21,531 bases of DNA from a virus. The notes beneath the pieces were generated by a model that was not told the DNA's origin, did no database searches, and was given only the letters and a program-made list of their open reading frames with translations. Shown here one piece after another: positions 3,798-21,531 of the stretch (position 1 is the first letter of the stretch; the number at the start of each line of letters is the position of its first letter). A program made the position numbers and the translations under genes. The stretch covers positions 1 through 21,531 of the IMG/VR virus record IMGVR_UViG_3300002460_001091, one strand, 5' to 3'.

Positions 3798-4024
3798 GTC
3801 GAAAATACCCGCATGCTAGCAACTCCGCCGTCATCGCAGCTTGGCTCCGCGCCCACACGGGCGAGACGTGGCAGGTGACGGTAAACGCGGTCGGCGGCGT
3901 GCGGGCGGTGAACGTCGCAACGTCCTACACGATGGACGCAACCGTCGGGACGTACCGGGCCAGCTTCGAGCACAGTTTGCGGCGAGTTGGCGTGTGGATT
4001 GACGAGTCGGAGGCGGACGAATGA
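3794..4024 (+). CDS. Hypothetical phage protein (76 aa)
   Basis: The product has an N-terminal helix with WLRAHTGETWQVTV, a beta-rich centre (VNAVGGVRAVNVATSYTMDA) and an acidic end (WIDESEADE). It has no membrane segment or cysteine motif, and no family is recognised. ATG 3794 overlaps the upstream stop (ATGA) and its own stop overlaps the following fibre gene (ATGA at 4021). It sits immediately before the receptor-binding module, where small virion-assembly proteins are common, but nothing in the sequence proves that role. Confidence 0.5.
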   Translation: MSRKYPHASNSAVIAAWLRAHTGETWQVTVNAVGGVRAVNVATSYTMDATVGTYRASFEHSLRRVGVWIDESEADE

Positions 4025-5184
4025 CAATCGAGTACGCTTCCGCATGGTCCGCCGACAACGCTACGTCGATCGCCGCGTCGTCGATCGCGAACACAGCGAC
4101 AGACACAACTGGCGAGATCAGCGGCGACGCAGCATCCATCGAGTTCGGCTTCCAGATCGTCTACGGCGGCACGGCGACGCAGGGCGTCAAGGCGTATCTG
4201 CTCCATCATTCTGGCACGGCATATCAAGACGTGTCCGACAACCCGCCGGCGATTGAGCTTCCTTACTCCGTCTCGGGCACGCATGATTTTTCGTGGACCG
4301 TCACCGGGCTAGCGGCGGGAAAGTACAAAGTCCACCTGACGAATAACAGCGGTGCGACGGTCACGGCGACGGTCAATTACCGAACATCCACGGTCAATTC
4401 CACCGATACGAGCGCGGCGACGGCCGGGGACATGCTGGCGACGCTCATCAATGCTGACGTGTCGATCACGGGGGCAACGACGCTCACGTCTTCTGCGTTC
4501 GGCAAGCGGCACGTCTGCACGGGGTCGAGCGATTACACAATCACACTGCCGGCCGTCAGCAGCAATGACCAAAAGGCAATCGAGTTTATTTTCAATCAAA
4601 ACGCTGGCGTACTAATCACGATCGACGGCAACGGCTCGGAGACGATCGGGACAAACCTGACCCGCAGCTACATCCCTGACGAATCGGCGGTGATGCAGGT
4701 GGGCGGCGGGATTTGGAACTCGTTCGAGTCGCTCGTGTATCCCGAATTTTTTGCTCACCGAAATAGCGTAAATCAGACAGGCATCTCCGACGTGACTTGG
4801 ACGAAAGTTGAATACAACGATGATTCTACTGACCCAGGCACAGATCCATTTGCGATATTCGATGCGGCAACAAACTATCGTTTTACGGCAAATCGGCCCG
4901 GATCGTGGCAAATCAGGCATCAGGTAAATATCGCAGGCACAACGCTAACGGAAGGGTGGGCCGGCCTGTGGCTCAATACGAGCAGCGGCGGACCAACGCG
5001 GCAATCACCGCTAATTGTGGTTGGATCAGCGAATGGATACGGGGCGGTGGATGCCACGATGTCACTCGTCAAATCCGATTACCTCCATGCGATCACATAT
5101 GGCAACGTGGCGTCAGGCACAGTAACGGTAGTCGGCGGGGCAGTTGTATCCTATTTCACAGCAAGGTGGCTAGGTCATGGATAA
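4021..5184 (+). CDS. Tail-fibre/adhesin-like protein with C1q-like C-terminal domain
   Basis: The 387-residue product is Thr/Ser/Gly-rich and almost wholly beta in character. Residues about 1-128 form a module with YLLHHSGTAYQDVSDNP that recurs in the gene at 5506-5895. Residues about 150-220 form a second beta region (SSDYTITLPAVSS...GVLITIDGNGSETIG) of a type common in phage fibres. The C-terminal part (about 240-387) has FFAHRNSVNQ...WTKVEYND...NYRFTANRPGSWQI...SYFTARWLG, which looks like a C1q/TNF-like trimeric jelly-roll. It likely contributes to host-surface binding. GGAGG lies 8 bases before ATG 4021. The stop overlaps the next gene by 8 bases. Confidence 0.7.
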   Translation: MTIEYASAWSADNATSIAASSIANTATDTTGEISGDAASIEFGFQIVYGGTATQGVKAYLLHHSGTAYQDVSDNPPAIELPYSVSGTHDFSWTVTGLAAGKYKVHLTNNSGATVTATVNYRTSTVNSTDTSAATAGDMLATLINADVSITGATTLTSSAFGKRHVCTGSSDYTITLPAVSSNDQKAIEFIFNQNAGVLITIDGNGSETIGTNLTRSYIPDESAVMQVGGGIWNSFESLVYPEFFAHRNSVNQTGISDVTWTKVEYNDDSTDPGTDPFAIFDAATNYRFTANRPGSWQIRHQVNIAGTTLTEGWAGLWLNTSSGGPTRQSPLIVVGSANGYGAVDATMSLVKSDYLHAITYGNVASGTVTVVGGAVVSYFTARWLGHG

Positions 5185-12792: not shown

Positions 12793-13323
12793 ATGCCAAG
12801 ATTCAAGCCGTTTGCGGAAAGATTTCTCGACAAGATTCTTAAAACGGATAGCTGTTGGATCTGGCGGGGGAAAAAATCCAAAAGCGGTTACGGTATGGTT
12901 TATCTTAGCGGCGGGCGTTACCGAAGCGCTCATCGGGTGTCATGGGAATTGTTTGTAGGATCAATACCCGATAATCTGTACGTTCTCCACAAATGCGACA
13001 ACCCTGCATGTGTCAATCCGTCATGCTTATTCATCGGTACACAGACTAACAACATGAAGGATATGAGCGCCAAGGTTCGTTCATGGTCACAAAATCATCG
13101 TACCGAAGCTGCGGCAAGAATCGCTAGAGTCAGAAAACGGCCACCTGTCGGAGAGTCTCATCATCTTTCTAGGCTCACGGACGAAAAGGTACGGGAGATC
13201 AGGAAGCGACGGGCTGAAGGACAGAAGTATGAAGATATTGCCGCAGCAGTTGGAGTCGGGAAATCAACTGTTGGTCGCGTCGTCAATGCTGATACCAATG
13301 GAGGATGGTCGCATGTTTTATGA
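12793..13323 (+). CDS. Free-standing HNH endonuclease with C-terminal helix-turn-helix
   Basis: The 176-residue product matches HNH_3-type phage endonucleases. It has SCWIWRGKKSKSGYGMV at the N-terminus, AHRVSWELFVG, then YVLHKCDNPACVNPSCLFIG (residues about 66-85) and TQTNNMKDM. The C-terminal RLTDEKVREIRKRRAEGQ...IAAAVGVGKSTVGRVV is a helix-turn-helix for target binding. The family usually has His in 'NPxHL'; here it is Cys (NPSCL). It has its own promoter and strong RBS, and its composition is more AT-rich than its neighbours. It may be a homing or site-specific nuclease. HNH genes beside terminases can also aid packaging (HK97 gp74 is the known precedent), so that role is an alternative. 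Confidence 0.85.
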   Translation: MPRFKPFAERFLDKILKTDSCWIWRGKKSKSGYGMVYLSGGRYRSAHRVSWELFVGSIPDNLYVLHKCDNPACVNPSCLFIGTQTNNMKDMSAKVRSWSQNHRTEAAARIARVRKRPPVGESHHLSRLTDEKVREIRKRRAEGQKYEDIAAAVGVGKSTVGRVVNADTNGGWSHVL

Positions 13324-13438: not shown

Positions 13439-14054
13439 ACGCCAAAAACGCCGCAACAAGAAAGCCGCGCACCAGAAGGTGAACGCGCCGCACGCGGCCG
13501 AACTGGCGGCATTGCCGAAACCGCCGCCGATGCCAGACGGCATGGGCGGGACGGGCGAGCTATTCGACCCGCACAGAACCAAACAGGACGCCCGGCTGGC
13601 GGCCCGGATTCTCTCTTGCGGCGTCGTGACGGAGGAACAGGCGGCGAAAGTTCTGGCCGGTGCGTTCCGGCTCGGCGCCCAGGCGGTCCAGGACGGATCG
13701 GCACGCGACTACGGGGCGGCCATGCGGGTTCCGGCCGCGATCGCAAAACTCGAAATGGACCGCGAGCGGCTGGAACTCGACAAGGAAAAGGCGGGTAAAG
13801 GTGAACAACCAGAACTCCACCAGCACGTCCACAGCCATGTCCACGTTGAGGCGGGAACTCCGGGAAGCGTTGAAGGCGTTGCCGAGCAAGCAGCGATCGC
13901 TCTTGAGGAACTCGATCGACTCCTGCTTGAAGACGGGCAACACGGACAGACTATCGACGTTGCTCCGAGCAATGGACACGCGGCCGATCATCCCATTCTG
14001 CCCACACCGACCAACGGCAAAGCAAACGGCATTCCTAAGAACGGACAGCACTGA
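13428..14054 (+). CDS. Small terminase-like (TerS) packaging protein
   Basis: The 208-residue protein immediately precedes the large terminase. A Lys/Arg-rich start (SKRQKRRNKKAAHQK) is followed by TKQDARLAARILSCGVVTEEQAAKVLAGAFRL and a long charged helix ending MRVPAAIAKLEMDRERLELDKEK, the layout expected of a DNA-binding N-terminus and an oligomerising helical core. The C-terminal part is His/Ala/Asn-rich and low in complexity (LHQHVHSHVH). It would recognise packaging sites and recruit TerL. The assignment is mostly positional. It overlaps the TerL reading frame by between 83 and about 250 bases depending on the TerL start, and it overlaps the methyltransferase remnant at its beginning. 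Confidence 0.58.
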   Translation: MASKRQKRRNKKAAHQKVNAPHAAELAALPKPPPMPDGMGGTGELFDPHRTKQDARLAARILSCGVVTEEQAAKVLAGAFRLGAQAVQDGSARDYGAAMRVPAAIAKLEMDRERLELDKEKAGKGEQPELHQHVHSHVHVEAGTPGSVEGVAEQAAIALEELDRLLLEDGQHGQTIDVAPSNGHAADHPILPTPTNGKANGIPKNGQH

Positions 14055-16215
14055 AATACTGTACGGAGGTTCAGCAGGTTCCGGGAAAAGTGATGTTCTT
14101 TTAATGTCTGTTTTGCAGTACGTTCATCATCCTAATTACTCCGCAATTCTCTTCCGTCGTACTTATGCAGACTTGGCATTGCCAGGGGCATTGATGGATC
14201 GCTCGCACGATTGGCTGCAAGGGTCCGGAGCGACATGGAATGGGACAGACAAGCGTTGGCGGTTCCCAAGCGGAGCAACGATCACGTTCGGATACCTCGA
14301 CCAGCGAAACGACCGTTACCGCTATCAAGGCATGGAATGTCAGACCGTTGTGTTTGATGAGCTAACGCAGTTCAAAGAAGAGGATTACCTATATTTGTTC
14401 AGTCGGCTCCGTCGCCTTGAAGGGAGTCGCATACCTATCAGGATGTTGTCAGCAAGCAATCCTGGAGGTATTGGCAACGACTGGGTGAAACAGCGATTCA
14501 TCGTTGACCCTGGTCTAAAGAGAACATTCGTTCCCGCCGGCCTGCGTGACAATCCGTTCCTTGACCAAGAGGAATACGTCCAGGCTCTGGGCCACCTCGA
14601 CCACATCACGCGGGCGCAATTGCTCGACGGCGATTGGGACGTGGTGGCGGACGGCAACATTTTCAAGCGCGAATGGTTCCAATCATGGCGGGCACAGGAA
14701 CAGCAATACATCCTTGGTCCGAACATCGTCCCGCAACGCTCGTTCCTGCCGTTCGGCGTAGTCGATCTGGCTGTGAGCGAATCGACGTCGGCGGATTACA
14801 CGGTTATCCTGTGCTGCGAGCACGACAGTACCGGGACGCTCATCATCCGGCACTGCTACCGCGGCCGCATCGGGGCACCGGAGACGCTGGAGAGAATCAA
14901 GGCGTTGGTCAATGAGTACGGGCTGCAATGGGTCGGGGTCGAGGACGTGGCGTACCAGCGGGCCATGATTCAGTTGCTTAATCGGCAGGGCGTTCAGGTC
15001 CGGCCGATCCATCCGAAGGGCGACAAGATCGTGCGGGCACAGGCGGCGTCGGTAAAGTTTGAGCAGGGGAAGGTATGGCTACCAAAAGATGCCGCGTGGG
15101 TGCCAGAATTTGAGAGGGAGTTGTTGGCGTTTCCGGACGGATCACACGATGACCAATGTTTTGTAGCGGATACACTAATCAGTACGCCGAGCGGTCCACG
15201 TCGCATCGACACGATTCGCGTAGGGGATTTTGTTACGACAAGATCAGGAACAAGAAAGGTAGTCGCATCTGGAATAACTAGCCATTCTGCAACCGTGTGT
15301 CGCGTGCGACTATCAAACGGCATGGAACTTGTTGGGACCAGAAACCATCCCGTATTTTCTCTTGATCGTGGATGGATACCACTCGACGCTATCTCTTACG
15401 AAGATACAATGGTGCCATGTGGAAATCAGGAGCTAAATCAGAATCAATCGTTTTTAACGGCATTGTCTTCCGGAGATATCCCGAAGCAAAACAAGAGGCA
15501 TATCGAAGATATTATCGGCCGCATGGCGGGCACGTTAAAAGAGGCATTCAGCACCTTCATCAGGAAATCTGGAAATCTCATTACGGCCCTATTCCTGACG
15601 GATGCCATATCCATCATAAAGATGGAGACTTCCTTAACAACGATATATCAAATCTTGAATGTGTATCGTCGGAAAAACATCATAAGGTTCATGGCGAGCG
15701 AGGAGACTACGCCACAACAAAAGCTTTGCAGCATCTTGCTAAGATACGTCACCTTACTGTCGCATGGCATCAATCAGCAGAGGGAAAAGAATGGCATCGG
15801 CGTCATGCAAAACAACACGGATTTGGAAAAGCAATACGTCGTTGCGCCATATGCTCAGAATGCGGAAAAGACTACTGTCATGAATATGTTGGCAAGAGCA
15901 AGTTTTGCTCAGGAAAATGCAGTCTCAGGTCACGTCGTAAATCAAAGATCGACAACGAAAACAGAATATGCGCAACATGCGGAAAAGTGTTTTCTGTCAG
16001 CCGGTATGCAAAGCAAAAGAATTGTTCGCGTGCATGCGGTAGAATTGCCAGCAATCTTGCCAGGGCGGCATGTCGTTTACAATCTAACGATTGAAGGCAA
16101 TCACGAATACTTCTCTTCAGGCATACTCGTTCATAATTGCGACGCAATTTCCTACGCTTGCCGTCTCGCGTCGAACGTCGGCACGAGTTCATTCATGCCT
16201 TACGTGGTGAAGTAA
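13837..16215 (+). CDS. terL: Terminase large subunit (TerL) interrupted by an intein
   Basis: This is the ATPase-nuclease that pumps and cuts phage DNA. Walker A is GGSAGSGKS (residues about 77-85), Walker B is VVFDEL (D174, E175), and there is ADLALPGALMDRSHDWL between them. The RuvC-like nuclease has VVDLAVSE (D310), GVEDVAYQ (E369) and motif III HDDQ|CDAISYA (D438, D439). A 327-residue intein (residues about 441-767) sits exactly between Q and C of motif III. The spliced protein would be about 465 residues, normal for TerL. Starts GTG 13801, ATG 13837 and ATG 13972 are all possible; 13837 gives a usual N-terminal helix. Unspliced protein would have a broken nuclease. Confidence 0.88.
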   Translation: MSTLRRELREALKALPSKQRSLLRNSIDSCLKTGNTDRLSTLLRAMDTRPIIPFCPHRPTAKQTAFLRTDSTEILYGGSAGSGKSDVLLMSVLQYVHHPNYSAILFRRTYADLALPGALMDRSHDWLQGSGATWNGTDKRWRFPSGATITFGYLDQRNDRYRYQGMECQTVVFDELTQFKEEDYLYLFSRLRRLEGSRIPIRMLSASNPGGIGNDWVKQRFIVDPGLKRTFVPAGLRDNPFLDQEEYVQALGHLDHITRAQLLDGDWDVVADGNIFKREWFQSWRAQEQQYILGPNIVPQRSFLPFGVVDLAVSESTSADYTVILCCEHDSTGTLIIRHCYRGRIGAPETLERIKALVNEYGLQWVGVEDVAYQRAMIQLLNRQGVQVRPIHPKGDKIVRAQAASVKFEQGKVWLPKDAAWVPEFERELLAFPDGSHDDQCFVADTLISTPSGPRRIDTIRVGDFVTTRSGTRKVVASGITSHSATVCRVRLSNGMELVGTRNHPVFSLDRGWIPLDAISYEDTMVPCGNQELNQNQSFLTALSSGDIPKQNKRHIEDIIGRMAGTLKEAFSTFIRKSGNLITALFLTDAISIIKMETSLTTIYQILNVYRRKNIIRFMASEETTPQQKLCSILLRYVTLLSHGINQQREKNGIGVMQNNTDLEKQYVVAPYAQNAEKTTVMNMLARASFAQENAVSGHVVNQRSTTKTEYAQHAEKCFLSAGMQSKRIVRVHAVELPAILPGRHVVYNLTIEGNHEYFSSGILVHNCDAISYACRLASNVGTSSFMPYVVK
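15157..16137 (+). other. Intein within TerL (327 aa)
   Basis: Read in the TerL frame. Block A is CFVADTLI, with Cys1 at 15157 and N-extein Gln before it. Block B is GTRNHPVF at 15334-15357 (T61, H64 form the TxxH motif). Block F is VYNLTIEGNHEYF. Block G is ILVHN, ending with Asn327, followed by Cys +1 of the C-extein (TGC 16138-16140). All residues needed for autocatalytic splicing are present. The segment between blocks B and F, where a homing endonuclease normally resides, contains no LAGLIDADG, HNH or other recognised domain in this frame. It spans about 230 residues of unfamiliar composition. Another frame carries an HNH gene there. Confidence 0.86.
15417..16094 (+). CDS. HNH homing endonuclease nested out of frame inside the intein
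   Basis: The 225-residue product (ATG 15417; an upstream in-frame ATG is at 15372) is in a reading frame different from TerL. It starts MWKSGAKSESIVFNG and carries LHQEIWKSHYGPIPDGCHIH, then HKDGDFLNNDISNLECVSS, the HNH core (HIHH at 15606-15617), and VHGERGD. A C-terminal region has paired cysteines (CSECGKDYC, FCSGKC, CATCGKVF, CSRACG), a probable zinc-binding DNA-recognition part. It lies entirely between intein blocks B (15334-15357) and F, ending within block F. The region is much more AT-rich than neighbouring genes. No clear Shine-Dalgarno site precedes either start, so the level of translation is unknown. The likely target is the intein-free TerL site. Confidence 0.78.
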   Translation: MWKSGAKSESIVFNGIVFRRYPEAKQEAYRRYYRPHGGHVKRGIQHLHQEIWKSHYGPIPDGCHIHHKDGDFLNNDISNLECVSSEKHHKVHGERGDYATTKALQHLAKIRHLTVAWHQSAEGKEWHRRHAKQHGFGKAIRRCAICSECGKDYCHEYVGKSKFCSGKCSLRSRRKSKIDNENRICATCGKVFSVSRYAKQKNCSRACGRIASNLARAACRLQSND

Positions 16216-16227
16216 CGAAGGAAATCA

Positions 16228-16617
16228 ATGAAGGAAGCTACGATACGGGCATTCGAACAGATCAGAAAATCCGAAGTCACGGACTGGCACCGGCTCATTG
16301 GCAATGCGGAAATCAAACGAGCGAAAGCGCTCGAAGCGATCGGGCTGTCTGGGTTTCAGTATTGTCGGCCGGATGACCAAATGCTTGCGGCGGAAGTGGA
16401 TCGCATCGAAGTGGAGTATCGCGAAGCGATCAAGAGAGCTGACGATCAATTTGACTACTCACTCACACCAGACAATACCGAACCGGTCACGAATCGCGAA
16501 TGGACGCTAGCGACAAAAGTAACGTATTGCACAAGGTGCATGAAGATCCATCTGTCGCATTGGCCGGTATGTCTATCGTGCGGCAGAAGCGATAAATTCA
16601 AAGAGAGGAAACTTTAG
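16228..16617 (+). CDS. Hypothetical protein with C-terminal CxxC zinc pairs
   Basis: Starts 12 bases after TerL behind AAGGAAA. The 129-residue product is helical and charged at the N-terminus (RAFEQIRKSEVTDWHRLIGN, KRAKALEAIGL), has a middle EVEYREAIKRADDQFDYSL, and ends with YCTRCMKIHL and CLSCGRSD, two CxxC pairs for one zinc. It may be a small packaging or DNA-binding accessory. No family was recognised. Its stop TAG (16615-16617) overlaps by 3 bases the TAA of the minus-strand gene (16614-16616), so the two genes converge with no spacer or visible terminator. Confidence 0.6.
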   Translation: MKEATIRAFEQIRKSEVTDWHRLIGNAEIKRAKALEAIGLSGFQYCRPDDQMLAAEVDRIEVEYREAIKRADDQFDYSLTPDNTEPVTNREWTLATKVTYCTRCMKIHLSHWPVCLSCGRSDKFKERKL

Positions 16618-17615
16618 ACACCTTGAGTGATCTGCGAATACAGATCGTTCCACCGTGTCCATTCCCCGCGGTCCTTCGAGGAATCGAACCGGTTCCGGAC
16701 CCGCTTGATGGCTTCCGCGCGGAACAGCCGAGCCTTGCGGCGATCGCTTGGCAGTTCGTGCCGAGAGCCGAGACGTTCCATTGCCAGGTTGAAATCGTGG
16801 TCGCGTGGGATAAACGCCATCTCTTTTTGGATCAGCGTCTCATCCGCTTTCGGCATGGTAGGTAGCGACGTGTGCTTGGCGTAGGTCCGTTTCGGTGCCA
16901 AGAGCGGGGCATACTTTTCCAGCAACTCGGCTTGGTTGGCTGGCAAGCTCTTGTGGATACGTTCAATCAATGCGTCGACTTTCTTTTGGTCGGCAGCGGC
17001 GATCGTGGCCGGGGCCTTGCGTTCACCGCGTGGCGGGATTCGCTTGTTAAGGGCCTGCGACGCCACGATGGAATTGACGCGGGTCAACTGCGGCTCCGTC
17101 AATTGCCTCGAGAATTTGGAAATCTGGTACTCCAACTCGCCTGGATTCGCGTTCGGATTGTGCGTCACGTCTACCCCGAGCCGCTTTAGGTGTCCGAGGG
17201 CTTTCGCCTGTTCGTTCGCGTGGGCCTCCGCGTGCGACGGTTCTTTCGCGGCGTCCGCAGCGGGGGATTTTGCCAGCTTCTTTGTCGGTTCCTTCTTCGG
17301 TTTCGCTTCCCGCTTCTTCCGCTCGACCTTGATCTCTTCGAACTTGCCAGACGCCAAGATGCCTTTCGGCACCTGCGACCGCGACGCGACGGTACGTGGT
17401 TTGCCGGATCGCGGACCGACGAACCGGAACGCGAATTGGAGGATCTCGCGAGCCAAACCTTTGGGATCGTGCAATTGGCCGTGAATCATCCGCTGCTCCG
17501 CGTCAGGGGCGTGACGCAGGAACAGGCGGATGCAGCGATCGGGCGACAGCGACATGCGGGACGCCTTGACAGGAGTCATGACCTTGACGCGATAACGAGT
17601 TTTGACCGTTGGCAT
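16614..17615 (-). CDS. Virion-associated Lys/Ala-rich protein with shared FRFVGPRSGK motif
   Basis: Minus-strand product of about 333 residues, starting at MPTVKTRYRVKV (ATG 17615, GAGG 7 bases upstream) or at ATG 17627, which forms TAATG with the upstream gene's stop. Residues about 60-100 hold a 36-residue module (AFRFVGPRSGK...SQ.PKG.LASGKFEEIK) shared with the protease/scaffold gene. A Lys/Ala/Pro-rich linker follows (ERKKREAKPKKEPTKK), then helical segments such as LTEPQLTRVNSIVASQALNK, KKVDALIERIHKSLPANQAELL and WNDLYSQIT. The shared module and gene position suggest a head-assembly role, but the protein is not recognisable as a portal. It is transcribed opposite to the genes around it. 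Confidence 0.6.
   Translation of the reverse strand: MPTVKTRYRVKVMTPVKASRMSLSPDRCIRLFLRHAPDAEQRMIHGQLHDPKGLAREILQFAFRFVGPRSGKPRTVASRSQVPKGILASGKFEEIKVERKKREAKPKKEPTKKLAKSPAADAAKEPSHAEAHANEQAKALGHLKRLGVDVTHNPNANPGELEYQISKFSRQLTEPQLTRVNSIVASQALNKRIPPRGERKAPATIAAADQKKVDALIERIHKSLPANQAELLEKYAPLLAPKRTYAKHTSLPTMPKADETLIQKEMAFIPRDHDFNLAMERLGSRHELPSDRRKARLFRAEAIKRVRNRFDSSKDRGEWTRWNDLYSQITQGV
17328..17435 (-). repeat. Shared 36-codon module, copy 1 (minus strand)
   Basis: Encodes AFRFVGPRSGK, then a middle with SQVPKGI, then LASGKFEEIK, within the minus-strand gene at 16614-17615. It matches 29 of 36 residues of the copy at 19654-19761 on the opposite strand, while the DNA differs at many synonymous positions. 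The two copies are inverted relative to each other. Such protein-level conservation with nucleotide divergence suggests an old duplication under selection for the encoded peptide. Confidence 0.8.
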
Positions 17616-17626
17616 GGATGACCTCA

Positions 17627-19018
17627 TTAGCTGACCGGGCTGGCTCCGTCGCCGTCGCCAGCGATTCCGCCGGCGAGCGTATCTGAAATCGTCGACGTTG
17701 CATTCGACGGCAACTGAATCCCGTAATGACGACGGAAGAAATCCTGAAACGTGCCAAGCTGGTCATTGGCGACGGTGAAGGTGAACCGATCCCCGCGCAT
17801 GAACCGATCGTCGCCGGCCACGATGACCGCCCCGACGCCGCCGTGGTATGTCATGGGACCGAATGCGAGCGAATCAATCCAGATCGACATGCCGCTGGTA
17901 AGGTTAGTCGTCTTGATGGCCAGCTCGATATCGTCCGGAATGACGGCCGGCAAGTTGATCTTGAAGTACGCGAGCGTCCAGACGGTCGCGTAGTTGATCG
18001 ACTGGATGACGATTTTCTCCGTAGACGAAAGCGTGAGGCCGGTCCCCTGGAGCTGGATCGTCAGGGTCGATGCGTCGCCGGAAGCCGGTTCTTCGCTCGC
18101 CTTGTACCAGACGGCTCCGACGTAGCGACGCAGCGGCCGCAATGCCGACACGGAGAGCGATTGCGAAATCTGGATCGTGGTCTGCGAAAGCTGGCCGTCG
18201 AACCGCAAGGCCGACTCGCCGCGGAAGAAGTCGCCTGCGCTTGTGTCCTGGAAAATGTGCGTTCCGGCCGTCCCGCTGTCGATATCCCACCGGCTCGGCG
18301 CGTTGCTGCTGAACGTCTCGAAGTCGCGGTTATTGACCAACGACGAAGCGTTCAACGTCTGCAGGGTCGGACCGTTGCCGCTCCCTTCCGTGGGATGGGC
18401 CAGCGACAGATTCTCCAGTTCGCCATGCCAGCGGAACGACTCCTGACCCTCGGGCCGGCCGTCACGCTGGGAATCGGCCACGCATTCCAACGTCATGGTT
18501 TCGCCGGGGACTGCAAGCTCCGTCGGCAGCTCGTTGTATTGCTGGTGGGCCGCCATGTTCGATCCGGGCTTGGTGTAGCCATCGAGGCGGCGGGTTGTGA
18601 TAACCACCCCGTTGCCGTTGTTTATCGCGTCGGCCGATACGGACGAAAGCGTGACGGCGCACGGCTCCACAGTCTCGTTGTCTTCGTTCATGCGGCGGAT
18701 GAGTTCCGCCAGAACGGCTGCGATCCCGTTTGTTTCCATCTTTAATTCGCGGACGATTTCTTCGGCGGTGATCCGGCGAGTGATGAATCCGGCCAGCGAT
18801 GACGCCCAGCCGTCGACGTTGGACTTGAAACCCTCATAGGCGGCGACGATCCCCTCAATCTCTTTGTCTTTGTCGCCGGCCTGGAATTTCTCGATGACTA
18901 CCTGTAGATCGGCGGGGAATGTCGTGTCGGAGTAGATTTCGTAGGCGTTGATACGTTGGATGATCGAGCCGATATGTGTGAAAAGGCCATTATTTGCGCC
19001 GTCGTAGTCGATCGCCAT
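17627..19018 (-). CDS. Phage structural protein with galactose-binding-like domain
   Basis: Minus strand, 463 residues from ATG 19018 (MAIDYDGANNGLFTHIGSII); an upstream in-frame ATG near 19114 would add an Arg-rich leader that looks like non-coding sequence. The first 140 residues are helical (GIVAAYEGFKSNVDGWASSLAGFI, ELKMETNGIAAVLAELIRRM). Residues about 220-385 contain SLVNNRDFETFSSNAPSRWD, a pattern seen at the start of jelly-roll carbohydrate-binding (CBM4/9-like) domains. Beta strands to SIWIDSLAFGPMTYHGG follow. The end has GDRFTFTVANDQLGTFQDFF and RHYGIQLPS. It is a virion protein by style, likely part of the head or neck, but I know no exact family. TAATG couples it to the next minus-strand gene. 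Confidence 0.62.
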   Translation of the reverse strand: MAIDYDGANNGLFTHIGSIIQRINAYEIYSDTTFPADLQVVIEKFQAGDKDKEIEGIVAAYEGFKSNVDGWASSLAGFITRRITAEEIVRELKMETNGIAAVLAELIRRMNEDNETVEPCAVTLSSVSADAINNGNGVVITTRRLDGYTKPGSNMAAHQQYNELPTELAVPGETMTLECVADSQRDGRPEGQESFRWHGELENLSLAHPTEGSGNGPTLQTLNASSLVNNRDFETFSSNAPSRWDIDSGTAGTHIFQDTSAGDFFRGESALRFDGQLSQTTIQISQSLSVSALRPLRRYVGAVWYKASEEPASGDASTLTIQLQGTGLTLSSTEKIVIQSINYATVWTLAYFKINLPAVIPDDIELAIKTTNLTSGMSIWIDSLAFGPMTYHGGVGAVIVAGDDRFMRGDRFTFTVANDQLGTFQDFFRRHYGIQLPSNATSTISDTLAGGIAGDGDGASPVS

Positions 19019-19131
19019 GTGTGCAACGTGACCGGCCCGACCGCGACGGGCACAGGAGACGCGGGAGCGACCCGCCGATTTTTTTCCATAATAGGCGGTT
19101 TTTTTGAAATACACCGCATCTAATTGGCCTT

Positions 19132-20754
19132 ATGGAGTTTCGCAAGCACATTCTGAACGCCGGAACCTACCGGGCACCCAAGCGGACGATCCGGATTACG
19201 CCGGAGCGGATTCGCCATTGGTGCGAGCAATTTGACCGCATGTCGCAAGCGGGCCTGCAAATTCCCGTCCCGTGGGGTCACGTCAATTCGACGCCGCGCA
19301 CGCCGGACGAAGAAGAGTTCTGGTCGAGCAAGTACAACGCTGGTTTCGTGAAGTCGCTCAAGACGGATGAAGCGGGCAGGCTCCTTGCCGAACTGGAAAT
19401 CCCACTCGAAGAAGATGCTCGCCGGGTCGGGACCGTAGTCCGCGAAGTCTCGCCGGAAATCTGCGATCGGTTCCGCGACGGATCCGGCAACGTGTGGGAG
19501 GACGTGATTACGCACGTCGCGCTGGTCAATATGCCGGTCGCGGCCGGTCAAGAGAACTTCGAACCGGCCGGGACGCCGTTGGTCGCGTCCGCCGGAACCG
19601 ACGGAGCCGATCTCATGCACCTGTCGCTTGGCATGGCTGTCACGACCGACCAGTTAGCGTTTCGCTTCGTCGGTCCGCGCAGCGGCAAGTCCCGTGTGGT
19701 TGGCAGCAAGAGCCAGATTCCCAAGGGCGTTCTGGCCAGCGGGAAGTTCGAAGAAATCAAGGGCGTCGGGGTCCGCAGCACGGAAAAGAAAGCGACGGAA
19801 AAGAAAGCCGTCAAGGCTGCGGACAAGCAGGACAAAGCAAAGGCCGCGAAGAAGCGTTCCGCGTCGGCAAAGAAGGCGGCGGAGTCTCGCAAGGCGGGCA
19901 TGAAGTCGGCGAAAACGACCGGGTTAGCATCGCCGGGTCCGTATCAGTCGGTCGACAAAAAGAAGGCGAAGCAACAAGGCAAGGCCAATATCGCCGCCGC
20001 CAAAACCAAACGTAAATCACGCATGTCTCTTTACGAGGTAACCCGCATGGCCACCGACACCGACGAAGAAGTCCTCGACGACGTTCAGGACGTGGAAATC
20101 CCCGACACGGACGCTGTCGAAGAGGGGGCGGACGACGAGCCGGAAGAAACCGGCATGGCCGACCTGCTCGCCAAGCTCGCCAAGCATGGCTTCATGCTCC
20201 CCGAAGACGCGACCCTCGAAGAGCTTCCCGACTTGCTCATGGTCGCGCTCGATACCAAGGAAGCAGTCGAGGCCCAGGCGGACGGCGAAGAGGAAGAGGA
20301 CGAAGACGACATGGCCGACATGGACAGCGCGGACATGAACGTCGAGCAGCCGAACGCCGAAGAGCAGATTGCCATGTCGCTCAAGGCGAATCCGCTCATG
20401 AAGTCAGTCTACAACCGGCTCGAAAAGACGGAGAAAGCCCGCATCAGCCGCGATATCGACGAACTGGTGAGTTCCGGCCGTATCTCGCCGGCTCTCGCGA
20501 ACGAGTTCCTCAAGCCACAGGCGACATCGTATCGCATGTCGCTGAACGCGAACGGCGAGACGGTCCCGCAAGACGTGGACCGCTTGATCGAGTTCGCGAA
20601 GAAGCTACCGGCCGGCGCGTGCTGGGAGCCGGGCGAGCGGGCTACGAAGATGAGCCTCCGGGCCGTCGATCATCCGAACGAGTTCAAGGACCACGACGGG
20701 AGCGGCAAGCTCTCGCAAGAGGAGATCGATGCCGCGGTGAAGCGGCTGATTTAA
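19132..20754 (+). CDS. Prohead maturation protease fused to scaffold
   Basis: A 540-residue protein. Residues 1-140 resemble Mu gpI-type head proteases: IPVPWGHV (H50), VVREVSPEICD (S107), and ITHVALVNMPV (H128), the 'HVALTNxPA' signature. After MHLSLGM, residues about 175-210 carry the FRFVGPRSGK...KFEEIK module also found on the opposite strand. A Lys/Ala-rich basic stretch follows (about 210-300). The acidic C-terminal half (LDDVQDVEIPDTDAVEEGAD, then a long helical KAELMK-like region) is scaffold-like. It ends with an EF-hand-like loop, DHDGSGKLSQEE (20689-20724). An internal ATG 20047 with GAGG at 20035-20038 may give a separate scaffold. It probably controls capsid assembly and processing. 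Confidence 0.72.
   Translation: MEFRKHILNAGTYRAPKRTIRITPERIRHWCEQFDRMSQAGLQIPVPWGHVNSTPRTPDEEEFWSSKYNAGFVKSLKTDEAGRLLAELEIPLEEDARRVGTVVREVSPEICDRFRDGSGNVWEDVITHVALVNMPVAAGQENFEPAGTPLVASAGTDGADLMHLSLGMAVTTDQLAFRFVGPRSGKSRVVGSKSQIPKGVLASGKFEEIKGVGVRSTEKKATEKKAVKAADKQDKAKAAKKRSASAKKAAESRKAGMKSAKTTGLASPGPYQSVDKKKAKQQGKANIAAAKTKRKSRMSLYEVTRMATDTDEEVLDDVQDVEIPDTDAVEEGADDEPEETGMADLLAKLAKHGFMLPEDATLEELPDLLMVALDTKEAVEAQADGEEEEDEDDMADMDSADMNVEQPNAEEQIAMSLKANPLMKSVYNRLEKTEKARISRDIDELVSSGRISPALANEFLKPQATSYRMSLNANGETVPQDVDRLIEFAKKLPAGACWEPGERATKMSLRAVDHPNEFKDHDGSGKLSQEEIDAAVKRLI
19654..19761 (+). repeat. Shared 36-codon module, copy 2 (plus strand)
   Basis: Encodes AFRFVGPRSGK, then a middle with SQIPKGV, then LASGKFEEIK, inside the protease/scaffold gene just after the protease domain. 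It matches 29 of 36 residues of the minus-strand copy at 17328-17435. In both proteins a Lys/Ala-rich stretch follows directly. The module could be a docking or cleavage segment for the shell; that is inference. Confidence 0.8.
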
Positions 20755-20768
20755 GACGATCATCGAAC

Positions 20769-20820
20769 GTGCGGCTAGGGTAGCTCCCGACCAGACGGCA
20801 ACCGCGTCCGTCAGCCGCAC
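20769..20820 (+). promoter_or_regulatory. Possible stem-loop leader before the decoration gene
   Basis: The 113-base gap before the decoration gene holds the inverted pair GTGCGGCT (20769-20776) and AGCCGCAC (20813-20820), exact complements with a 36-base loop. A second, weaker hairpin pairs AGCCT (20835-20839) with AGGCT (20849-20853) and covers part of the GGGGAGG site. These could modulate translation of a highly expressed head protein, or end upstream transcription. No U-tract follows, so a classical terminator is unlikely. Confidence 0.3.
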
Positions 20821-20867
20821 ACAACACACGCGGAAGCCTTTCGCGGGGAGGCTCGTGAGAATGAAAC

Positions 20868-21531
20868 ATGAGCCAAATGGGATTCGCCGTACCGGGCTTC
20901 ACGACCGCCCGCGAAAACTCGGAAGCCGAGATTTTTTGGGGTCCGCTGGAACTGCGGCACCTGCATAACGGGTTGATTTCCGGCGCGGCCCGCGATACCG
21001 CCAATTCGCCAACGACTGTCCTGCGTCCAGGCCTGGTGCTCGGCCTCATCACGGCCAGCAACCTGTACGCTCAGTACAGTCCGACCGCGACGGACGGCAC
21101 GGCGGTCGCGCGAGCGATCGCGTTGCTCGAATGCCGGGCGACCGACATCGACGGCAACAACCAGAATCGCTTGATGCCGATTGCGGTTGGCGGGCCGATC
21201 AAGGCCGCGAACTTGATCGGCCTCGACAGCCTGGCGCGTCGCCAGCTTGCCAACAACTTCCTTTTCGACGATGACCTGCCGGGCCGTCAGTTCCTTGGCG
21301 GTCCGCTCAAAGAAGTCGCGAAGACGGCCGACTACTCCGTGGTCGCGGCCGACAACGGCACGCTGTTCACCACCACCGCGGCGGCCGGCAACGTCGTCTT
21401 CACGTTGCCGACGATCGCCCGCGGCCTGATGTTCGAGTTTCTCAACGTCGTTGACTTCAACATGACGGTTGCCAGCGCGGCCGGTGACGACATGGTTTCG
21501 ATCAACGACGCATCGGCCGATTCGATCGCGT
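20868..21531 (+). CDS. Head decoration protein (lambda gpD-like domain), cut by the right edge
   Basis: ATG 20868 begins MSQMGFAVPGFTTARENSEA. The phrase TTVLRPGLVLGLITASNLYA, followed by YSPTATDGTAVARAIALLECR, matches the head-decoration domain ('VLRPGLVLGxITxSGKYxxYxPTATDGxxxAxGIL'), which trims and stiffens the capsid shell. After residue about 140 a second beta domain follows (NGTLFTTTAAAGNVVFTLP, MFEFLNVVDFN, MTVASAAGDDMVSIN), similar in style to the fibre region at 4480-4660. At least 221 codons are present before the edge. The Shine-Dalgarno site is weak (GAGAATGAAAC). It lies right after the scaffold gene, where decoration or major capsid genes are expected. Confidence 0.72.
   Translation, partial: MSQMGFAVPGFTTARENSEAEIFWGPLELRHLHNGLISGAARDTANSPTTVLRPGLVLGLITASNLYAQYSPTATDGTAVARAIALLECRATDIDGNNQNRLMPIAVGGPIKAANLIGLDSLARRQLANNFLFDDDLPGRQFLGGPLKEVAKTADYSVVAADNGTLFTTTAAAGNVVFTLPTIARGLMFEFLNVVDFNMTVASAAGDDMVSINDASADSIA

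Follow-up and report, generated by a model that had tools for sequence, protein, structure and literature searches.

Prohead assembly and maturation in described phages

In phage T4, short propeptides draw several internal proteins into the prohead core, after which the prohead protease trims them, as described in excerpts of a paper on the subject (PMC9026906). For one of these proteins, IPIII, the first 10 residues, which are N-terminal, are sufficient and are removed. In Staphylococcus phage 80alpha, the capsid and scaffolding proteins are cleaved during maturation, according to part of a report on that phage (PMC5744158). Here, a 36-residue protein module is described that is present in two genes on opposite strands of a viral stretch of DNA, the IMG/VR record IMGVR_UViG_3300002460_001091 (positions 1 to 21,531; this whole stretch of 21,531 nucleotides is called the window). 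One of its carriers is an open reading frame (ORF) predicted to encode a prohead protease along with a scaffold, and the other is a minus-strand gene (Table 1). The window corresponds to part of the minus strand of the phage-like contig G000:C55 (62,124 bases; also IMGVR_UViG_2710723518_000006).

When compared with the T4 prohead core (gp21, gp22, gp67, gp68, IPI-III and Alt), the module differs in being 36 residues long and internal, and in being present in the protease ORF as well. T4-type capsid targeting sequences are N-terminal and removed, whereas the module lies inside both of its proteins. The T4 targeting sequences are known from several packaged proteins; the module is found in two, of which the minus-strand protein is the putative cargo.

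Another system to be compared is that of Salmonella phage SPN3US. Excerpts of its description state that the prohead protease gp245 cuts the portal, itself and other head proteins, that Ser is favoured after the cut, and that the N-terminal propeptides of the head proteins include ones of 20 and 24 residues (PMC10052503). As far as these excerpts go, the two systems would be alike in having a single motif in the portal, the protease and a further (here putative) head protein, Ser after the cut, and a front piece of around 20 residues, the sites here being candidates. They are unlike in that the motif here is a candidate [RK]MSL, the capsid protein is no candidate substrate, and the present system is known from its sequence alone.

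The annotation of the phage Mu record places the scaffold Z at an internal start inside the protease I. In Mu, the portal protein gpH is cut to a shorter form by gpI; no open paper on gpI cleavage was found. The present locus resembles Mu in its portal (PF06074) and F-like (PF04233) domains, and would also do so in a nested protease/scaffold arrangement if the putative internal start is used. Unlike Mu, it has the portal and F parts fused, carries the module and a basic stretch between the protease and the scaffold, and has no pairwise similarity to Mu I.

A module kept at the protein level in two genes

An earlier, sequence-only reading of the window had reported the module on both strands with 29 of the 36 residues identical, and its coordinates and count were confirmed (81% identity). 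The two copies lie about 2 kb apart. In blastp, run against a four-protein database, the two carriers matched with E 2e-17 over 49 residues (162-210 of the protease/scaffold protein and 52-100 of the minus-strand ORF), and no other shared segment was seen at E 1. Two blocks, AFRFVGPRSGK and LASGKFEEIK, are fully identical, the variation being confined to the middle.

The many synonymous differences that had been claimed were also found. The DNA of the copies is identical at 72 of 108 positions, with 26, 29 and 17 of 36 at codon positions 1, 2 and 3, respectively. The codons are alike at 14 of the 29 identical residues, where 12.6 are expected when synonymous codons are drawn randomly according to each gene's own usage (P 0.36). 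All four shared serines are encoded by TCN in one copy and by AGC in the other. By two methods, the nonsynonymous divergence (dN) between the copies is 0.23-0.27 and the synonymous divergence (dS) 1.6-2.5. Because the synonymous sites are saturated while the protein is still largely identical, the module is under protein-level selection in both genes, as its earlier description as conserved had implied. Its history, as read from the two copies, is one of an old duplication or transfer, followed by such strong selection in both genes. Since the protein was kept despite the saturated drift of the DNA, the module is probably a working part. Furthermore, both copies are followed by Lys/Ala-rich sequence, again as stated earlier, with a net charge of +22 in 87 residues in the protease ORF and +7 in 50 in the minus-strand protein.

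The two carriers of the module

The naming of the ORF at 19132 as a protease/scaffold has held up, with a protease match in the first 145 residues and a C-terminal part that is acidic and resembles a scaffold, the first 111 residues of this part having a net charge of -38. Through hhalign, residues 7-145 were matched over 119 columns to a profile built from nine sequences, all phage head-maturation proteases or their homologues (E 1e-4, probability 57.5%), with a score of 35.4 versus a maximum of 21.1 among 60 shuffles. His 50 and Ser 107, which we take to be the catalytic residues, are invariant across the 10-sequence alignment. No protease family was returned when the whole ORF was scanned with Pfam, PHROGs and NCBIfam, and pairwise blastp against Mu I and against the Jayan protease was not significant. 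A structure model of the N-terminal protease region alone, with a predicted local distance difference test score (pLDDT) of 34, was not used. By sequence homology, the ORF matches a phage prohead protease of the herpesvirus-protease-like kind, and its activity is predicted.

Along this ORF, the protease domain is followed by HLSL, the module, the Lys/Ala stretch, RMSL and the acidic scaffold. Residues 164-298 are basic, with a net charge of +27 in 135 residues. At the internal ATG 20047, a ribosome-binding signal (GAGGT) is present 7 nucleotides upstream; this ATG may start a putative separate scaffold, as is the case with Z inside Mu I.

For the minus-strand gene, the frame is open from 17627, but the start is more probably ATG 17615, which has GAGGT upstream with a gap of 5. 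Family searches with its protein gave nothing beyond GemA (E 0.07), phrog_28979 (E 0.17) and a best NCBIfam match of E 0.03; no useful family match was obtained for the module or for either carrier. Both carriers had been called head-region genes, which holds true for their position; the minus-strand product is a putative virion protein.

MSL words as candidate cleavage sites

Of the 17 words that recur at least three times within the protease ORF, none is as strongly over-represented as MSL (4 observed, 0.08 expected). Over the contig, [RK]MSL is present in 3 of 75 ORFs, namely, the protease/scaffold with three, a portal-F fusion with one at residue 410, and the minus-strand protein with one. 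This ORF set was a greedy list over 60,000 of the 62,124 contig bases, with four presumed-antisense ORFs removed and five head/tail ORFs added, and it includes some spurious ORFs. The portal-F fusion lies beyond the window (G000:C55 17312-20335, minus strand), where a portal (PF06074, E 1e-7) and a Mu F-like minor head protein (PF04233, E 2e-6, 29.1 bits, just below the cut-off of 29.6) are joined in a 1007-residue ORF.

The candidate sites fall outside the recognised domains. In the protease/scaffold, they come after the protease domain. In the portal-F fusion, four [RQ]M[SA][LI] words are located between the portal and F domains; the look-alikes RMAI, RMAL and QMAI lie there, and RLSL follows the F domain. 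Of 3000 shuffles, one placed a word of the form [RKA]MSL in the portal fusion as well as in the minus-strand protein. With the wide motif [RKQH]M[SA][LI], 6 words were seen against 1.3 expected (P 0.004), a value that is post hoc because the motif was widened after the portal linker had been seen. One of the six, HMAI in a 495-residue minus-strand ORF, was not counted as a site because it stands at the gene's possible start. With these mixed statistics, the [RK]MSL words are treated as candidate prohead-protease sites. The module itself had been suggested to be a maturation-cleavage segment; it does lie near such candidate sites, but fits less well as the cleavage site itself.

Recurrence of the module and relatives of the phage

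A lack of recurrence of the module in other phages had been set beforehand as what would refute its suggested role, and no recurrence was found within the sensitivity of the scans. A search of the genome's own assembly gave two real copies, and over 60,000 bases of the contig the next match was at E 0.12 for copy 1 and at E 0.17 for copy 2. With third-best matches of only E 0.13 in the assembly and E 0.12 in the contig, no third copy was seen. Weak, regularly spaced module matches in the first 260 bases of the contig hint at a tandem repeat at this end. Among 100 genomes, own included, only the own genome matched, and the 72,556 plasmid records gave no match. When an alignment of the two copies was used, 45 candidate stretches arose among IMG/VR viral contigs, of which the same contig alone was confirmed; of the 69 from GTDB contigs, none was. 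Among 396 genomes (the own and related ones), six others appeared at E 0.002-0.01 per genome, which is about chance. The whole carriers were found only in the same contig in IMG/VR and in no phage record, and a text search of the literature with three module stretches returned no paper.

A few candidates were set aside. A match of the protease ORF in G168 (E 5e-5), the sole other one among 297 family genomes, was taken as composition, judging from the ORF list. A T4-like marine phage protein located between the portal and gp21 (L045) matched PKGxLASGK and was first taken as homologous. With that word fixed, however, the similarity of the flanks had P 0.31 with copy 2 and P 1.0 with copy 1, leaving the homology unsupported; PKGxLASGK is absent from the gp21 regions retrieved for five further T4-like phages. 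Another pattern match (L046) lies in a frame full of stops and is due to chance, and a tblastn match to the module in L029 (24 residues, E 0.42) was also taken as chance.

Searches with the major capsid protein, portal and terminase gave only distant homologues and the contig 3300002460_000250 (17164 bp). The latter is identical in the overlap, and its capsid match begins inside the gene at the contig edge, so that it stops short of the module. Apart from this contig, the searches turned up nothing closely related to the protease/scaffold, major capsid, portal or minus-strand gene. Among 22 viral contigs that have a related terminase, a tblastn search at E 0.5 revealed no protease, capsid or minus-strand protein, and one F-like match was seen (L025, E 8e-6). 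As no close relative of the phage or of the two carriers was found, the missing recurrence is weak evidence.

Genomic setting

The features of the two carriers are collected in Table 1.

Table 1. Positions of the module, its carrier genes and the candidate sites in the window
Feature	Position	Strand	Remarks
Module-bearing minus-strand gene	16614..17615	-	333 residues from ATG 17615; open frame from 17627
Lys/Ala-rich stretch after module copy 1	17178..17327	-	net +7 in 50 residues
Module copy 1	17328..17435	-	in the minus-strand gene, about residues 61-96 from ATG 17615; reads FAFRFVGPRSGKPRTVASRSQVPKGILASGKFEEIK
RMSL, candidate cleavage site	17547..17558	-	some 20 residues into the minus-strand protein, as read from its probable start
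Protease/scaffold ORF (predicted)	19132..20754	+	540 residues
Prohead-protease domain (predicted)	19132..19566	+	hhalign; His 50 and Ser 107 invariant in the alignment with nine phage proteases
HLSL ahead of the module, possible cleavage site of a weaker kind	19618..19629	+	motif
Module copy 2	19654..19761	+	in the protease/scaffold ORF, residues 175-210; reads LAFRFVGPRSGKSRVVGSKSQIPKGVLASGKFEEIK
Lys/Ala-rich stretch after module copy 2	19762..20019	+	net about +22
RMSL, candidate cleavage site	20020..20031	+	between the basic stretch and the scaffold
Possible separate scaffold product	20035..20754	+	GAGGT 20035-20039, internal ATG 20047 (M306)
AMSL, possible cleavage site	20371..20382	+	scaffold part
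RMSL, candidate cleavage site	20533..20544	+	motif
KMSL, candidate cleavage site	20647..20658	+	motif

On the 3' side of the protease/scaffold ORF are a lambda-D-like decoration protein and the major capsid protein. Directly upstream of the module-bearing minus-strand gene is a second minus-strand gene (window 17627-19018), of 464 residues if read from ATG 19018. It is without a Pfam or NCBIfam match, and its product is, by look only, a possible virion surface protein. A scan of 16100-21000 gave no promoter-like and six terminator-like sites, which is not above shuffles.

The region before these genes holds the terminase large subunit, which carries an intein with Hint and intein-splicing domains in an uninterrupted frame. 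Nested in this intein, within 13660-16215 and in a different frame, is an HNH endonuclease ORF (window 15372-16094, plus strand; HNH_3, E 2.6e-16). A second HNH_3 endonuclease, free-standing and with a helix-turn-helix end, is located just upstream of the terminase region (window 12793-13323, plus strand). Elsewhere on the contig, an ORF at about 3993-4172 (plus strand of G000:C55) looks, by eye from its translation, like a CsrA-type RNA-binding regulator.

Possible roles of the module

The module was earlier suggested to be a docking tag or a head-targeting peptide, with which the present results are compatible without proving either. We tentatively favour, with more doubt than confidence, a full docking-and-cleavage reading in which the module is a short conserved stretch that mediates protein-protein docking inside the prohead. 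In the Mu I/Z-like ORF, the module and its basic Lys/Ala tail separate the protease domain from the acidic scaffold; the minus-strand protein, carrying the same module, would be retained in the same prohead core. Candidate docking partners are the scaffold, the capsid protein at its inner face and the portal, and the basic tail would meet the acidic scaffold. The protease would then cut the [RK]MSL-type sites, which would free the module together with its basic segment, as well as the scaffold and the portal linker, and it would trim around 20 residues off the front of the minus-strand protein. We infer docking, cargo status, use of the internal start, cleavage, the order of these events and location in the virion. 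This reading is favoured because the module has been kept, one of its carriers is protease-like, an acidic scaffold adjoins the basic segment, the [RK]MSL words are distributed as described, and SPN3US offers a parallel.

Several results weigh against it. No match to the module was found in 50,697 phage records. The AlphaFold model of the module, built from two sequences, is weak (pLDDT 60), with strands in FRFV and KFEE, and the best PDB match to its fold was at E 0.9. The minus-strand product could be a non-virion protein. With its single site ahead of the module, this protein would keep the module when mature. No [RK]MSL-type site is present in the major capsid protein. The motif itself was first spotted by eye, and RMSL ranks sixth of 8558 words contig-wide, uncorrected. 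When the motif was defined from the protease ORF alone and the 74 other ORFs were held out, at least two matches were obtained with P 0.067. Such a value leaves room for the [RK]MSL words being internal translation starts or chance, a view of the motif only that we find somewhat unlikely. An ATG is present inside every such word, and the minus-strand one has AAGG 8 nucleotides upstream. However, a Shine-Dalgarno match was seen for M306 but for none of the four MSL codons in the protease ORF; this argument is weak, given that no match precedes the start of that ORF (19132) either. Further, Arg or Lys precedes Met at 5 of the 6 MSL sites of the three proteins, which a start codon does not need.

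The charge of the sequence after both copies would also suit a histone-like internal segment that binds the packaged genome, one being cut from the precursor and the other being a separate internal protein. Both copies lead into Lys/Ala-rich sequence, and the basic part of the protease ORF (164-298) lies between HLSL and RMSL. The module, though, is just mildly basic, its FRFVGP and KFEEIK blocks are, by eye, unlike a DNA-binding tail, the tail of the minus-strand protein is short, and no useful family match speaks for DNA binding; we regard this role as quite unlikely. It is unlikely, too, that the module is an evolutionary leftover, the minus-strand gene having acquired a piece of the protease/scaffold long ago, with roles that are now different or not shared. 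The limit to two nearby copies, with nothing else in common between the carriers and no recurrence, would agree with such an origin, but a roleless piece would not persist with 29 of 36 residues kept despite saturated synonymous sites. An exosite for the phage protease, in place of a capsid or scaffold binding site, would fit the position of the module, which follows immediately on the protease domain and is close to candidate sites in both proteins. The portal fusion has the same candidate sites without a module, and we consider an exosite improbable.

Implications for head assembly

In its widest form, the docking-and-cleavage reading would amount to a new head-assembly logic, in which an internal docking module common to a protease/scaffold precursor and an oppositely encoded cargo protein is combined with a new [RK]M-S-L cleavage code, by which the protease/scaffold ORF, the portal-F fusion and the cargo would be resolved during maturation, and with the release of a histone-like basic peptide into the head; we hold this to be a doubtful proposition at present. 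If true, it would provide a compact and testable system for how a phage chooses the proteins that enter its prohead, with a module that could be moved between proteins. It would also offer a readable cleavage code in a phage for which no close relative was found. Even the conservative part alone, a module seen only here and under strong protein-level selection in two genes, would be an unusual clue to head assembly.

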